This document shows positions 2,938 to 19,747 of a DNA stretch of 33,920 bases, one piece after another. Source of the DNA: a virus. A program made the translations under genes and the position numbers. The notes below the pieces were generated by a model. That model was given only the letters and a program-made list of their open reading frames with translations. It was not told the DNA's origin and did not search any database. Position 1 is the stretch's first letter. The number at the start of each line of letters is the position of its first letter. The stretch lies in IMG/VR virus record IMGVR_UViG_3300042154_001699, positions 1-33,920 of that record; one strand, written 5' to 3'.

Positions 2938-3182
2938 TACTTAGTTTTTTTAGATATTTTTAATTCTTTTGTTTTAGCCTCAAGCTTTTCTTCTTTTTGT
3001 ACTACTTCTTGTACTATATCTTGTACTACCTCTTCAACTACATCTTCAAAATTGCGAACAAATCCTTTTTTTAGTAAAAGCTCGGCTCTTTCGTCAGATA
3101 CAATTAATTCTTCACCTTCTATAACAAATCTATTCAATACTAAATCTCTGTATGAATATTTTACTTTTATTTTCTTACTCAT
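2937..3182 (-). CDS. Small post-capsid protein with acidic coiled tail
   Basis: 81 aa. The N-terminal half (VKYSYRDLVLNRFVIEGEELIVSDERAELLLKKGFV, given here only as residues 8-43) resembles short proteins often encoded between capsid and connector genes, which carry a small beta domain followed by a helix with an ERAxxLLKKG motif. The C-terminal half is a charged, Val/Glu-rich repeat (VVEEVVQDIVQEVVQ) likely to form a coiled coil, ending in a Lys-rich tail. The function is unknown. It could be a minor head protein. Stop and start of the next gene overlap by one base. Confidence 0.6.
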   Translation of the reverse strand: MSKKIKVKYSYRDLVLNRFVIEGEELIVSDERAELLLKKGFVRNFEDVVEEVVQDIVQEVVQKEEKLEAKTKELKISKKTK

Positions 3183-3195
3183 AATTTATTTATTT

Positions 3196-3236
3196 GAAAG
3201 TAGGGGAGGAAACGATCCTCCCAGTATTATACTTTC
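3196..3236 (-). terminator. Strong hairpin after the capsid gene (attenuator or RNA stabiliser)
   Basis: On the minus strand an inner stem GGGAGGA/TCCTCCC (7 bp, 5-nt loop; 3204-3222) is capped on an outer stem GAAAGTA/TACTTTC (7 bp; 3196-3202 with 3230-3236). It begins 16 bases after the capsid stop codon and ends 14 bases before the next start. There is no run of Ts after it, so a full rho-independent terminator is doubtful. An attenuator or a 3'-end stabiliser that raises capsid mRNA relative to connector mRNA fits better (inference). Confidence 0.55.
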
Positions 3237-3251
3237 CAAACTACTTTATTA

Positions 3252-4325
3252 TTATGCTACGTTGCCTAAATCAGCAAAAACGAAAGCATCAACTCTATCA
3301 ATAGCAAGAACTTCACGCGCCTCGATACGAACAGTTACCAAGTTTTTCTGAATGTTATCAGAATCTTGCTCAAAGAACTCAACTTTAAGATCGTCAACTA
3401 CAACTCTCTTAGCCATGTTCCAATCTCCTAAAAGAACTTTGTCATCAGCAATAAAGCTAGACTTAAATATAGGAATACCAGCAATAGCAATATTACCATC
3501 AGGAGTGATTGTTACACCACCAGGGATTGAATAATCAGCAGGTTTAGTTAACAATAATCTACCCCATTGCTTAGGATTAACTACAATACCGTTAACTGCA
3601 AAATCAGCACTTTCAAGGTTTGTGATGTAATCTATGATTTGCTCTACGTCAACTGTAGCAGCTGTAGTAGTAGAACCAGTAGCAGCAGCAATAAGATCAG
3701 CATAGAACTTAGCATCTTCTGCTTTGTAGAAATCACGTAACAACATTTGTGGCAAAGCTGACTGTAGGAAAGGAAGATCCTGTAGCATTGACTTGTCAAT
3801 ACGAGCATAACCAGCAATATAACGAGCAGTATAAGTAACCGCAGTTAAATCGTAGTCAATTTGTGTTTTAGCATCACCTGGAGTTGATTGTACAGAGATA
3901 GAACCTTCTGTTCCAGTTTCACGATACAATGTGTATATACCAGTAGCAGAGCTAACAGCAGGGATAAGGCTACGGAAGTTAACCAAACGGTTAGGAATCA
4001 TAGCAACACCTGGCTGGTAAGTACGTACTGCATCACCTGTAAGGTTTCCAGCAACTGTCATGTTACCAACAGCTTTCATGTTAAGTTTAACTTTGTTACC
4101 AGCAGATACATCACTGATAGAATCAAAGTTCTTTGCAATTAGGTCTGCAAAAGACGCTTCAAAAGATTTAGCTTCCATTTTTTCTGTAGAATTTTGTTTT
4201 TGTAATTTAATTTCCATTTCGTCAAGACGAGCATCAATTGCTTGAGATTTCTCGCTGATTTGTTCTGCAACGACGTTTTTTACGTTTTCGTTTATAGCAG
4301 ATTTAAGTTGTTCAACTTTTTCCAT
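3252..4325 (-). CDS. Major capsid protein, HK97 family
   Basis: 357 aa. Residues 1-60 form a charged coiled coil (EQLKSAINENVKNVVAEQIS onwards), the delta domain that acts as internal scaffold and is normally removed by the prohead protease. Residues ~60-357 carry HK97-fold features: LIPAVSSATGIYTLYRETG (N-arm/E-loop region), ARIDKSMLQDLPFLQS, the P-domain helix region, VNPKQWGRLLLTKPADYS, and the C-terminal VEFFEQDSDNIQKNLVTV..RIEAREVLAIDRVDAFV. It overlaps the protease gene by 14 bases. Length is usual for HK97-type phages with a cleaved delta domain. A strong hairpin follows its stop codon. Confidence 0.93.
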   Translation of the reverse strand: MEKVEQLKSAINENVKNVVAEQISEKSQAIDARLDEMEIKLQKQNSTEKMEAKSFEASFADLIAKNFDSISDVSAGNKVKLNMKAVGNMTVAGNLTGDAVRTYQPGVAMIPNRLVNFRSLIPAVSSATGIYTLYRETGTEGSISVQSTPGDAKTQIDYDLTAVTYTARYIAGYARIDKSMLQDLPFLQSALPQMLLRDFYKAEDAKFYADLIAAATGSTTTAATVDVEQIIDYITNLESADFAVNGIVVNPKQWGRLLLTKPADYSIPGGVTITPDGNIAIAGIPIFKSSFIADDKVLLGDWNMAKRVVVDDLKVEFFEQDSDNIQKNLVTVRIEAREVLAIDRVDAFVFADLGNVA

Positions 4326-14369: not shown

Positions 14370-14605
14370 CTTTTTTAACAATACTTGGATGCATTTTACT
14401 AGGATTTGGTGCATCTATAATACTAACTATGAACTTAGCTACATCTTATGTTAGGAAATTAGAAAAACAAACTTTTTGGATAAATATATATAAAAATGAA
14501 GATGGTATTTTATTTTCTGATAGAATGGTAGATACTGAAAGGGAAGCGATTTTTGATGCAGCTGGTAGAAAAGATTATGTTAAAAGAATTAAGATAAGAT
14601 TATGA
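14366..14605 (+). CDS. Membrane-anchored hypothetical protein
   Basis: 79 aa. Residues 1-24 form a membrane helix (FLTILGCILLGFGASIILTM), followed by a cytoplasmic domain with FWINIYKNEDGILFSDRM and a basic end (KDYVKRIKIRL). Not recognised. It overlaps both neighbours by four bases (ATGA), so it is translationally coupled to the XRE gene and to the DnaA-like gene. Confidence 0.6.
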   Translation: MTFLTILGCILLGFGASIILTMNLATSYVRKLEKQTFWINIYKNEDGILFSDRMVDTEREAIFDAAGRKDYVKRIKIRL

Positions 14606-14949
14606 GTTATTTTATTTATCCAGGCTTAGAAGAAAAACACAAAATATTCTGTAGGCTGAAAAGAACTACTGATGATGTTGCTACTATTATCCATATAACC
14701 TGTGAGGCACTTGAAATAAGTATGAAGGATTTAATTGGTAAGAAAAGAAATAAGGATCTTGTGGAGGCTAGGATGATAGCAGTAGGATTATTATTAGAGG
14801 TTAATGCAAATTTTGGATTAAAGAAATTAGGTTCAATATTTAAAAAAGACCATACTACTATTATTTATTATCGTGACACCCATAAAGATTTAGTTAAGTT
14901 TGATAAGTCATTTAGGATAAAAAACAATTTAGTTAAATGTTACTTATGA
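14602..14949 (+). CDS. DnaA domain IV-like DNA-binding protein (1 of 3)
   Basis: 115 aa. Residues ~32-95 follow the DnaA C-terminal DNA-binding domain: ALEISMKDLIGKKRN, ARMIAVGLLLEVN, GLKKLGSIFKKDHTTIIYY. The KDHTTIIYY stretch corresponds to the DnaA signature RDHTTVLHA that contacts the DnaA box. There is no AAA+ domain or Walker motif, and at this length none could fit. By inference it binds DnaA-box-like sites and could steer or block host DnaA or mark the phage origin. A TTATCTACA site (on the minus strand) lies nine bases after its stop. Operon neighbours are recombination genes. Confidence 0.8.
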   Translation: MSYFIYPGLEEKHKIFCRLKRTTDDVATIIHITCEALEISMKDLIGKKRNKDLVEARMIAVGLLLEVNANFGLKKLGSIFKKDHTTIIYYRDTHKDLVKFDKSFRIKNNLVKCYL

Positions 14950-16370: not shown

Positions 16371-16658
16371 ATGGAAACGAAAAAATCAAAATTCTGTGGT
16401 AGTGGTCAATTAATGGGAGAGGATTTATTAGTAGATCTTAACTTAACCCAGTTAAAGGAAATCTTATTAGACGCAGAGAATGCACAATTTAAGAAGTCTT
16501 TTGTTACTAAGGATGGTACTAAGCAGGAAACTTTAAAGCTAAAGCTGGTGAAGCGTAAAGAAGCTCAAGGTTATTCTACACACTTCCTTGTTTTAAATGA
16601 TTACATAAAAGGAGAAAATGCCAAGAAAGTACAAGTCGCAGACGATCTCCCTTTCTAA
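16371..16658 (+). CDS. Small protein with SSB-type DDLPF tail
   Basis: 95 aa. The C-terminus is ADDLPF, matching the acidic tip of bacterial SSB that recruits replication and repair enzymes. The body has LVDLNLTQLKEILLDAE and beta-like KQETLKLKLVKRKE, FLVLNDYIK; I do not recognise a standard OB-fold. Its place just after an annealing protein and exonuclease suggests a single-strand DNA-binding or recombination mediator (inference). Its last 41 bases overlap the next gene. Confidence 0.6.
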   Translation: METKKSKFCGSGQLMGEDLLVDLNLTQLKEILLDAENAQFKKSFVTKDGTKQETLKLKLVKRKEAQGYSTHFLVLNDYIKGENAKKVQVADDLPF

Positions 16659-17082
16659 AGCTAAGTTTGTTGATGACTATAGATGGACTATAGCATTTGA
16701 GGCAATCAAGGATATAACAGGAGTAAACCCGAACGCTATAAGAAGAGCTAGTAGGGTAACTCCACTTCCAGCAGTTAGGATGATGGTTTCTTATGTTATG
16801 AGTTCAGAACTTGGTCAATCACCTGATTATATATCTTCACAAATAAATAAGGATAGAACTCTTACGTATTACTATATTAACCACTTTCCTGAATATATTA
16901 AAGAAGGGATTTATAAAGATTATTACGAGGCATTTCTTGAACTGTTTTACCATAAGTTAAAGTCATTAGGATATATTTGTAATTGTTGTGGTGCATTAGA
17001 TCCAGTAATAAAAGGAGATAAGCCATTAATGCCTAAAAGTGAATCAAAATTTAAAACCAAACTAGATGATATTAAAAAGTGA
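16618..17082 (+). CDS. DnaA domain IV-like protein (2 of 3)
   Basis: 154 aa. The start at 16618 lies seven bases after a good AAAGGAG Shine-Dalgarno site, inside the preceding gene. Residues ~35-95 follow the DnaA-box-binding domain: TGVNPNAIRRASR, VRMMVSYVMSSEL, SPDYISSQINKDRTLTYYYI. The DRTLTYYY segment replaces the canonical RDHTTVLHA, and the match is weaker than in the two relatives. A CNCCG cluster at residues 121-125 with no partner Cys pair is unlikely to form a full zinc site. No ATPase motifs are present. Confidence 0.6.
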   Translation: MPRKYKSQTISLSKAKFVDDYRWTIAFEAIKDITGVNPNAIRRASRVTPLPAVRMMVSYVMSSELGQSPDYISSQINKDRTLTYYYINHFPEYIKEGIYKDYYEAFLELFYHKLKSLGYICNCCGALDPVIKGDKPLMPKSESKFKTKLDDIKK

Positions 17083-17380
17083 TATTGATAAATTAGCAGA
17101 TATTTGCTGCCGAGAATTGGAGATTAATATTGATGATTTTTATAGTCCTAAACGTCATCGAAAACTTATTGACGCAAGAAGAGTTTTTTTCTACATACTT
17201 AAAGATTACCATAAAATAAGTGAACATTACGTAGAGCAGATAGTTCCTAATCTTAGAAACAGAACAACAATTATGCACTTAAATGATTCAACTAAATTTT
17301 ATCTTAAAAGCGATCTTTATATGAAACTTATTTACAAATCAATTTACGAAAAGTATACTAAAACAAAATACAATGGCTAA
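17066..17380 (+). CDS. DnaA domain IV-like protein (3 of 3)
   Basis: 104 aa. Residues ~15-80 follow the DnaA C-terminal domain: LEINIDDFYSPKRHRKLIDA, ARRVFFYILKDYH, VEQIVPNLRNRTTIMHLNDS. The NRTTIMHL motif matches the DnaA signature (xRDHTTVLHA). There is no AAA+ part. It overlaps the preceding relative by 17 bases and the next gene by eight. Position three genes before the origin-bearing initiator gene makes a role in replication control plausible. Confidence 0.75.
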   Translation: MILKSDIDKLADICCRELEINIDDFYSPKRHRKLIDARRVFFYILKDYHKISEHYVEQIVPNLRNRTTIMHLNDSTKFYLKSDLYMKLIYKSIYEKYTKTKYNG

Positions 17381-17626: not shown

Positions 17627-18268
17627 ATGAATAAAGACCATGGGTATTACTTTGTAATTCCAGCCAATATCTTCCACCATAAAGATTTATCTGCTAATGC
17701 TAAATTAATGTACGGTATCGTATCTAATTTTTGTGACAGGTATGGTAAATGTACTGCATCAAATAAGTTCTTTGCAGAAGCCTTTAATAAGTCAGAAAAT
17801 ACTGTTAGTAGATGGATTAGTGAACTGGAGTTCTATGATTTATTAGATAGCTTTATAGACTTTTCAAGTGGTAATAAAAGGATTTTGACCCTATCCACAA
17901 AAATAGGGAGAGCTATCCCCAAAAATGATGAGACCTATCCCCAAAAATGGGGAGATAATACTAATATTAATAATATAAATAATAATACTATTGTCGAGAT
18001 CATCGATTTCCTAAACGATACTGCTAAAACAAACTTTAAATCTGGTAACAAATCTACTCAAGGATTTATCAATGGAAGGATAGCAGAAGGATATACCCTA
18101 GAAGATTTTAAAAGTGTTATTACAACCATGGCCAGTAAATGGATAGGTACTGAATGGGAAGAGTATTTAAGACCTTCAACTTTATTCACACCTACAAACT
18201 TTGAGAAGTATTTAAACTCTGCTGTTAAAACCAAAAAACAAAAAGAACCAATTATAATAAAAGCATAA
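17627..18268 (+). CDS. Replication initiator with winged helix domain (O-like), contains origin
   Basis: 213 aa. Residues 1-75 are a winged helix-turn-helix: YYFVIPANIFHHKDLSANAK, LMYGIVSNFCDRYGKC, FAEAFNKSENTVSRWISELE (recognition helix). The C-terminal part (about 125-205) is a DnaD-like helical region (IVEIIDFLNDTAKTNFKSG, GRIAEGYTLEDFKSVI, EWEEYLRPSTLF). The middle (residues ~88-125) is encoded by three 22-bp iterons and an AT-rich stretch, as in lambda O. The dnaB gene follows with overlapping ATGA. It is expected to bind the iterons and load DnaB. The ATG is two bases after TTAAAACCAAACAAG. Confidence 0.8.
   Translation: MNKDHGYYFVIPANIFHHKDLSANAKLMYGIVSNFCDRYGKCTASNKFFAEAFNKSENTVSRWISELEFYDLLDSFIDFSSGNKRILTLSTKIGRAIPKNDETYPQKWGDNTNINNINNNTIVEIIDFLNDTAKTNFKSGNKSTQGFINGRIAEGYTLEDFKSVITTMASKWIGTEWEEYLRPSTLFTPTNFEKYLNSAVKTKKQKEPIIIKA
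17889..18000 (+). other. Predicted replication origin: three 22-bp iterons plus AT-rich stretch
   Basis: Three direct repeats start at 17891, 17913 and 17935, exactly 22 bp apart, with core CTATCC(A/C)CAAAAAT. Copy 1 contains CTATCCACA, one base from a DnaA box, within the inverted repeat CCCTAT...ATAGGG. Copy 3 contains CCCC-AAAAAT-GGGG. They are followed by a run of almost pure A/T from 17957 to 17993. Because 22 is not a multiple of 3, the repeats encode different residues each time, so selection is on the DNA. The layout matches lambda ori inside gene O. Confidence 0.8.
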
Positions 18269-19617
18269 TGAAACAGCAACCACAAAATATAGAAATAGAA
18301 GAGCAGGTAATAGGTACTATCCTATCCCAGAGTAATAGTTTTAACATAGCAATAAATATTATAAACAAAGATTGTTTTTACAATCAAAGACTTCAAGACA
18401 TATTTGTTTCTATCCTATCATTGTATTCAACCTCTAAGCCGATAGATATTGTATCAGTAAGCAATACCCTTAGAAACAATAATAAATTAGATTCTATTGG
18501 AGGATTAGACTTCCTGATTGGATTATCTGATAAGACAAGTAATAAAACTTCTTTTGAATACCATTGCTATATACTTCTTGAACTTCATGAAAGACGTAGC
18601 GGTATTTTAACTGCAAATAAATTAATTGATGGACTTTATGATTTAAGTATTGACATTGATGAGAATATGGTAACTGCTAACCAAGTTATTTTAAGCCTCT
18701 CTAACGAAGTTTCTAATATAGGTGGCATAAGTTTAGGTGAAAGTATAATAGAATTGATTAGAGAGCAGGAAAATGAGCTTAAAGGAGATTTTAATGGATG
18801 TAGAAGTAAGTTCGTAGATTTAGATAAACTTATTGTAGGATTTAAAAACCAGCAGATGATTATTGTTGCAGGTAGACCAGGTATGGGTAAAACTACATTT
18901 GGAATTAATATTGCCTATAGACTTGCTAAGTTTGACAATACCCCAGTAGGATTTTTTAGTTTAGAAATGAGTAGTATTGAATTAACTAAAAAGTTTGCAG
19001 CTATAGAATCTCAAATATGTAACTCTAGGATAACTAACTTAGATGAACCTATTTTATTAGATTATTTTAAGAAGGCTCAAAATATTGCAGAGTTACCTAT
19101 TTATATTGACGATAAGGCTGGGTCTACAATAGATGAAATTAGATCAAGAGCAATTACGATGAAACGTAAACACAATGTTGAAATAATATTTATCGATTAC
19201 CTACAGTTGATTTCTTCAAAGGGTAATAAGGGAACAAGAGAGAATGAGATTTCCGAAATTAGTAGAAAGATAAAGTTACTCGCTAAAGAATTAAATATTC
19301 CAATAGTTGCCATTAGTCAATTATCAAGAGCCGTAGAAACTGCTGATCCTAAAGTACCTTATATGCACCACTTGAGAGAATCAGGTAGTATAGAACAGGA
19401 TGCTGATATGGTATTGATGTTATGGAGGCCAGAATACTACGATTATAAAGAGTTTGACTATAATGATGTAATGCAAGATAGTAAAGGTAAATGTGTTACC
19501 TATGTTAGAAAGAACCGTAATGGAGATATTGGGAAGGCATTAATGAATACCAATTTAGCAGTTTCCAGTTTTTATGATATTGTAGATAACTTTTCAGTCA
19601 ATAGGGATTACTTTTAA
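18268..19617 (+). CDS. dnaB: Replicative DNA helicase, DnaB family
   Basis: 449 aa, the usual length of DnaB. N-terminal helical domain (residues 1-105) begins with IEIEEQVIGTIL. RecA-like core: Walker A GRPGMGKTT at residues 202-210, VGFFSLEMS, Walker B IIFIDYLQLIS around 306-316, REISRKIKLLAKELNIPIVA, LRESGSIEQDADMVLMLWRP and YVRKNRNGD with the arginine-finger region. It unwinds DNA at the fork and is probably loaded by the initiator encoded just upstream with a one-base overlap. The 3' end contains TTGTAGATAACTTTT, also found before the annealing protein gene. Confidence 0.95.
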   Translation: MKQQPQNIEIEEQVIGTILSQSNSFNIAINIINKDCFYNQRLQDIFVSILSLYSTSKPIDIVSVSNTLRNNNKLDSIGGLDFLIGLSDKTSNKTSFEYHCYILLELHERRSGILTANKLIDGLYDLSIDIDENMVTANQVILSLSNEVSNIGGISLGESIIELIREQENELKGDFNGCRSKFVDLDKLIVGFKNQQMIIVAGRPGMGKTTFGINIAYRLAKFDNTPVGFFSLEMSSIELTKKFAAIESQICNSRITNLDEPILLDYFKKAQNIAELPIYIDDKAGSTIDEIRSRAITMKRKHNVEIIFIDYLQLISSKGNKGTRENEISEISRKIKLLAKELNIPIVAISQLSRAVETADPKVPYMHHLRESGSIEQDADMVLMLWRPEYYDYKEFDYNDVMQDSKGKCVTYVRKNRNGDIGKALMNTNLAVSSFYDIVDNFSVNRDYF

Positions 19618-19641: not shown

Positions 19642-19747
19642 TGTGAGGTGGTGGAATTGGCAGACACGCTATCTTGTCTCGGTAGTGCTTGAGTTTTTAT
19701 TTCATCATCTTTTCTCAAGTTTGGAGGTTCGAATCCTTCCTTCACAG
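19642..19747 (+). tRNA. Class II tRNA with anticodon GUC and oversized variable arm
   Basis: Full cloverleaf: acceptor TGTGAGG/CTTCACA (one G-T pair), D arm GTG/CAC with an 11-nt loop containing GG, anticodon stem CTATC/GGTAG with loop TTGTCTC, variable arm CTTGAG/CTCAAG with a 20-nt loop (19694-19713), T arm GGAGG/CCTTC with loop TTCGAAT, discriminator G at 19747. No encoded CCA. The body resembles tRNA-Leu, but the 7-nt loop gives anticodon GUC (Asp). Position 37 is a T, which is rare. G73, G2:C71, G10, G34-U35-C36 and C38 all agree with the E. coli AspRS identity set. An altered tRNA-Leu or a non-decoding tRNA are alternatives. Confidence 0.8.

Follow-up and report, generated by a model that had tools for sequence, protein, structure and literature searches.

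A predicted iteron origin of replication inside the initiator gene of an uncultured phage, probably from Bacteroidota hosts

Positions 17891-17992 of a 33,920-base virus record (IMGVR_UViG_3300042154_001699; the whole stretch is called the window below) are very probably an intragenic iteron theta origin, at which the phage initiator would bind repeats within its own gene, open the adjoining A/T tract and hand over to the phage-encoded DnaB. Tandem repeats and an adjacent A/T-rich element occur together inside the initiator gene, which is the sequence arrangement expected of an intragenic iteron origin. Origin activity of this segment is predicted from its anatomy, constraint on the DNA, dyads within the repeats and recurrence in the protein family; binding, melting and helicase recruitment are proposed by analogy with known systems. 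The best reading is that the predicted origin works like lambda ori, yet with an initiator from outside the lambda O family, with iterons resembling those of RepA_N plasmids and with a layout resembling that of SPP1 oriL. The intragenic layout is already known from other phages and plasmids, and the present case adds an uncultured phage group, for which it provides a base-exact origin prediction. The nearest relatives of the window terminase are those of Flavobacterium and Bacteroides phages, which makes a Bacteroidota host likely.

The initiator gene and its repeats

The initiator gene (17627-18268, + strand) encodes a protein of 213 aa, in which Pfam profiles recognize a winged-helix HTH_36 domain (1.3e-7) and a Phg_2220_C domain (PF09524; 1.5e-25, 89.5 bits against a cut-off of 27), joined by a disordered linker. 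With matches to phrog_428 (replication initiation protein; 3.6e-42) and to TIGR02220 (96.2 bits, cut-off 66.65), the product belongs by profile to the phrog_428/TIGR02220 phage initiators. The HTH_36 domain (residues 20-71; 17684-17839, + strand) is presumed from Pfam and structural neighbours to bind the iterons, and the Phg_2220_C domain (residues 123-197; 17993-18217, + strand; Pfam and TIGR02220) is presumed to contact the helicase or primosome. The structure model has a pLDDT of 82.9, with a low-confidence linker at residues 94-113. Top Foldseek neighbours of the HTH_36 domain include the Rep-DNA complex 5kbj and RepA (4pt7/4pql), at an E value of only about 0.01. One profile (A1) matches RepA chains at 7e-5, and a second (A2) has no RepA match, so that the signals for structural kinship of the N-domain with RepA point both ways. 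The RepA_N domain (PF06970) itself gave no match in the window protein at E<=0.1.

The repeats and tract sit in the stretch that codes for the inter-domain linker. The three tandem 22-bp repeats described in the initial annotation were recovered by repeat search and unit alignment as iteron 1 (CTATCCACAAAAATAGGGAGAG, 17891-17912), iteron 2 (CTATCCCCAAAAATGATGAGAC, 17913-17934) and iteron 3 (CTATCCCCAAAAATGGGGAGAT, 17935-17956), all on the + strand, with spacings of 22 and 22 bp and 77-86% identity to copy 1. The core CTATCC(A/C)CAAAAAT is exact in all three copies, and the whole window holds no further copy of it, even at 2 mismatches. The self-repeat score of the array stretch (25.5) is the highest among 451 window tiles and was reached by 0 of 1000 synonymous-codon shuffles of the gene, the largest of which scored 19.0. 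Directly behind the array lies the A/T tract AATACTAATATTAATAATATAAATAATAATACTATT (17957-17992; 34 of 36 positions A/T), presumed from its conservation and low stability to be the unwinding element; by nearest-neighbour energy, no 40-bp stretch of the window is less stable than the one that starts at 17952. A second array, and hence a second origin, was not found elsewhere in the window, and GC skew tracks gene direction and is uninformative either way.

The dnaB gene (18268-19617, + strand), encoding a DnaB-type replicative helicase (DnaB_C 6.2e-79, DnaB N 9e-24; phrog_19 4.5e-92), overlaps the initiator gene, its start at 18268 being the last base of the initiator stop codon. No helicase loader is recognizable between the two. 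The annotation's description of a lambda-like origin inside an initiator gene thus holds for the layout, with iterons, A/T tract and helicase gene in succession, and fails for kinship with lambda O: the window protein has no match to Phage_rep_O (PF04492), a profile that lambda O itself matches at 5.7e-36, and hhalign comparison of the profiles gives a probability of 0.1%, so that no homology to lambda O is detectable.

Selection on the DNA and recurrence in the family

Comparison with near relatives indicates that it is the DNA, rather than the peptide, that is conserved in the array. Against a 78%-identical relative, changes affect 2 of about 23 synonymous sites in the repeats plus tract and about 57 of 102 elsewhere in the gene (Fisher p=4e-5; alignment-based counts are approximate). 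For L014 and L015, synonymous divergence amounts to 0.07 within the repeats and 0.12 within the tract, as against about 0.61 and 0.50 in the two domains, and nonsynonymous divergence within the repeats is not reduced. The three units are translated in three frames as the unlike peptides LSTKIGR, IPKNDET and YPQKWGD. It is this combination, of synonymous sites depleted of change, unreduced nonsynonymous change and unlike peptides, that supports conservation of the DNA; because the linker is disordered and tolerant, DNA constraints can dominate there. The claim of DNA-level conservation had originally been argued from a period that is not a multiple of three; this argument does not hold, as many relatives have 24- or 21-bp periods, and the synonymous-site comparison now carries the claim.

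Array and tract persist in L014-L016 (78% protein identity); over 45 bp the A/T tract shares 97.8% identity with that of L014, compared with about 78-81% for the gene flanks. The near-identical L001-L006 also keep the array and are uninformative. At 50-51% identity, L029 and L037 carry 3 and 4 units at exactly the 22-bp period, and here too an A/T tract of similar kind comes next. Their arms are new (TCACG..CGTGA, TATAC..GTATA), and the centre CAAAAATG recurs in all units except copy 4 of L037, which has CAAAAACG. In the close lineage the 22-bp period therefore persists while the sequence diverges, which was the check originally suggested for the repeats.

Every unit forms an imperfect dyad whose arms converge on an A-tract; in the window's own copies these arms pair at 3-4 of 5 positions. 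Across 16 units of five lineages, inverted symmetry has its maximum at the exact unit centre (55% of pairs; at most 40% elsewhere). Two of the L014 units read CAAAAGTG, and in its copy 3 the arm types are exchanged, with TCTCC on the left and TATCC on the right. Because of this exchange and the symmetry peak, the unit is best read as a 5-bp arm, a 10-bp A-tract centre, a 5-bp inverted arm and a 2-bp spacer.

To place the array in its wider family, 111 representatives below 70% identity were drawn from viral and bacterial contigs and phage records, the named ones being mostly from Firmicutes. At a threshold set by eye (self-repeat score >=14), repeats are present in 66 of 111 linkers, 1 of 96 N-domains and 1 of 111 C-domains; several of these linkers contain low-complexity 15- or 18-bp repeats, and in 35 the period is iteron-like, at 20-25 bp or twice this length. 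In these 35, dyads with 5-bp arms number 8.3 per 150 nt, against 2.2 after shuffling. Among the widely varying arms are GTATC, TGTCC, TGACC and CTTCC; most centres are A-rich, and a AATAATAC-like tract often follows. In the stretch searched, the only blastn match of Fusobacterium phage FNU4 spans window positions 17890-17990, that is, the iterons and tract. Such arrays can be found from sequence alone in many relatives, and one origin design, with dyads that converge on an A-tract where a winged-helix initiator gene codes for its linker, recurs in phages of Firmicutes, Fusobacteria and probably Bacteroidota.

The layout is not universal. An intact initiator without repeats, named at the outset as the observation that would speak against an origin, occurs in some distant relatives and in none of the window's nearest ones. 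Among 35 full-length representatives, the linkers of 12 score below 14, and hence an initiator is able to function in the absence of the linker-repeat layout; half of the 12 form one well-supported clade of six. No convincing repeats were found elsewhere near the initiator in this clade (L045, L052, L085), nor was a DnaA-box cluster.

Alternative explanations and known origins

It is very improbable that the repeats are an operator through which the initiator represses its own operon, with no origin function. Winged-helix proteins often bind dyads, and a protein bound to the iterons could also stand in the way of transcription through the gene; however, the array sits not at the start of the gene but about 265 bp into it, and an operator needs neither a conserved adjoining A/T tract nor the joint recurrence of these two elements in the family. 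Such arrays are, moreover, origins in lambda, SPP1 and pSK41. Still harder to credit is that the repeats have no role as DNA and simply reflect a repetitive protein linker that evolves fast. Linkers tolerate tandem duplication, as the low-complexity 15- or 18-bp repeats of several relatives illustrate, but the window units lie in three frames and thus yield no peptide repeats, synonymous change is depleted where nonsynonymous change is not, and the dyads stand nearly fourfold over shuffles.

Host DnaA, or the DnaA domain IV-like proteins of the phage itself, might bind the repeats as degenerate DnaA boxes, which we consider very improbable. In favour of such binding, copy 1 contains CTATCCACA, one base from TTATCCACA, as the initial annotation pointed out, and ORFs with DnaA domain IV-like products are present in the phage and, in similar form, in L029 and L037. 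The resemblance is not conserved, however: the position reads CTATCCCCA in L004-L006 and L014-L016 and is absent in L029 and L037, and the DnaA-like letters vary among relatives (CTATCCCCA, TCACGACAA, TATACGCAA). The motif TTWTNCACA occurs once in the window (5.1 expected), at 18182 in the initiator gene, where it is not conserved in L014-L016, and it is absent from L015, L016, L029 and L037. In the fetched loci of Firmicute relatives, which do possess iterons, no ORF of this type was detected. A DnaA-dependent origin was rejected, since there are no conserved DnaA boxes at the array.

Several characterized replicons resemble the iteron origin predicted here. SPP1 gp38 binds oriL inside gene 38 (PMC6316719) and the ori of 80alpha appears embedded in ORF20 (PMC5499656), so that both, like the predicted origin, lie inside the initiator gene. 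SPP1 (gp38-gp39-gp40) also shares direct repeats, a DnaB-type helicase of its own and an unwinding element rich in A/T (PMC6316719). It differs by its loader gp39 and its additional origin oriR; in the window no loader is recognizable between initiator and dnaB, and there is no second array. In pSK41 the Rep boxes lie centrally inside rep, the linker coded there is dispensable, and swapping the A+T-rich tract for G+C cuts binding tenfold (PMC5703833). Iterons of RepA_N plasmids are defined as semi-palindromic direct repeats converging on a poly-A tract, a description that fits the window iterons (PMC7145576). Such plasmids (pSK41, pTZ2162) share with the window these repeats, the winged-helix N-domain and the linker position; they differ in their Firmicute hosts, as opposed to a likely Bacteroidota host, and in that the window protein lacks PF06970, has another C-terminal domain and belongs to a phage that encodes a DnaB itself. 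The closest experimental evidence on the HTH_36 N-domain comes from the chimeric pPR9 Rep: its N-domain is of the same family (pfam13730) and resembles the one in a phage replication protein, and this Rep sustains autonomous replication (PMC5703833).

Lambda ori in gene O likewise consists of imperfect inverted-repeat iterons with an A-tract, followed by A/T-rich DNA, inside the initiator gene, and, when aligned with lambda iteron 4, the window units agree with it at 15-16 positions, where shuffled sequences reach at most 14. This likeness of the arms is probably convergence, because the arms change among the window's near relatives. In addition, lambda recruits host DnaB through P, whereas the window DnaB is phage-coded, and the proteins have no detectable homology.

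Proposed mechanism and neighbouring genes

In the mechanism that we propose, the N-terminal winged helix of the initiator would bind every 22-bp iteron; the protein would probably act there as a dimer, occupying the pair of inverted 5-bp arms (TATCC...GGAGA) that flank the 10-bp A-tract centre. With the three A-tracts spaced by 22 bp, or about two helical turns, stacking of the protein on them would curve the DNA and strain the adjacent A/T tract, which would then melt. The Phg_2220_C domain would help to place the phage's own DnaB, the product of the overlapping next gene, and host primase and polymerase would follow. As no loader is recognizable, DnaB may be loaded either by Phg_2220_C or by a host protein.

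A further suggestion, which we regard as tentative and rather doubtful, is that in this initiator family the A-tract centre of the iteron (C-AAAAA-TG for the lineage of the window) and the period stay constant and the arms change specificity between lineages, so that the initiator and the origin within its gene diversify jointly and can be exchanged as a single unit, and that in some phage groups small DnaA domain IV-like proteins joined this module as accessory origin or host-shutoff factors. A constant centre with changing arms would permit a direct test of how initiators gain new origin specificity.

Upstream of the initiator, a small ORF (17066-17380, + strand) encodes a DnaA domain IV-like HTH (Bac_DnaA_C 1.3e-8); its product is a possible accessory factor. 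A second such ORF on the + strand (14602-14949) also exceeds the Pfam cut-off, and a third (16618-17082) is a weak match below it. Counterparts of the 17066-17380 ORF lie upstream of the initiator in L014, L016, L029 and L037, and DnaA domain IV-like ORFs occupy this place also in the distant clade that lacks linker iterons (L045, L048, L052, L073, L085, L088). In L014, extra ORFs that the window lacks (1775-2410 and 2984-3625) are present around the DnaA-like ORFs and before the initiator, one of them resembling a DNA methyltransferase by eye only. About 660 bp between initiator and dnaB in L005 (2649-3306) have no match to the window, and the sequence upstream of dnaB in L012 (1-363) is likewise not initiator.

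Directly behind dnaB is a tRNA-like gene (19642-19747, + strand), which scored 36.4 bits (gathering 29) in an Rfam search of a short stretch and was missed by default ARAGORN and by Rfam on the whole window. It has the long variable arm of type II and a Leu/Ser-like body, and its anticodon reads GUC (Asp) from the loop. The gene is 95-98% conserved in the relatives' fetched loci, and a stem change preserves pairing.
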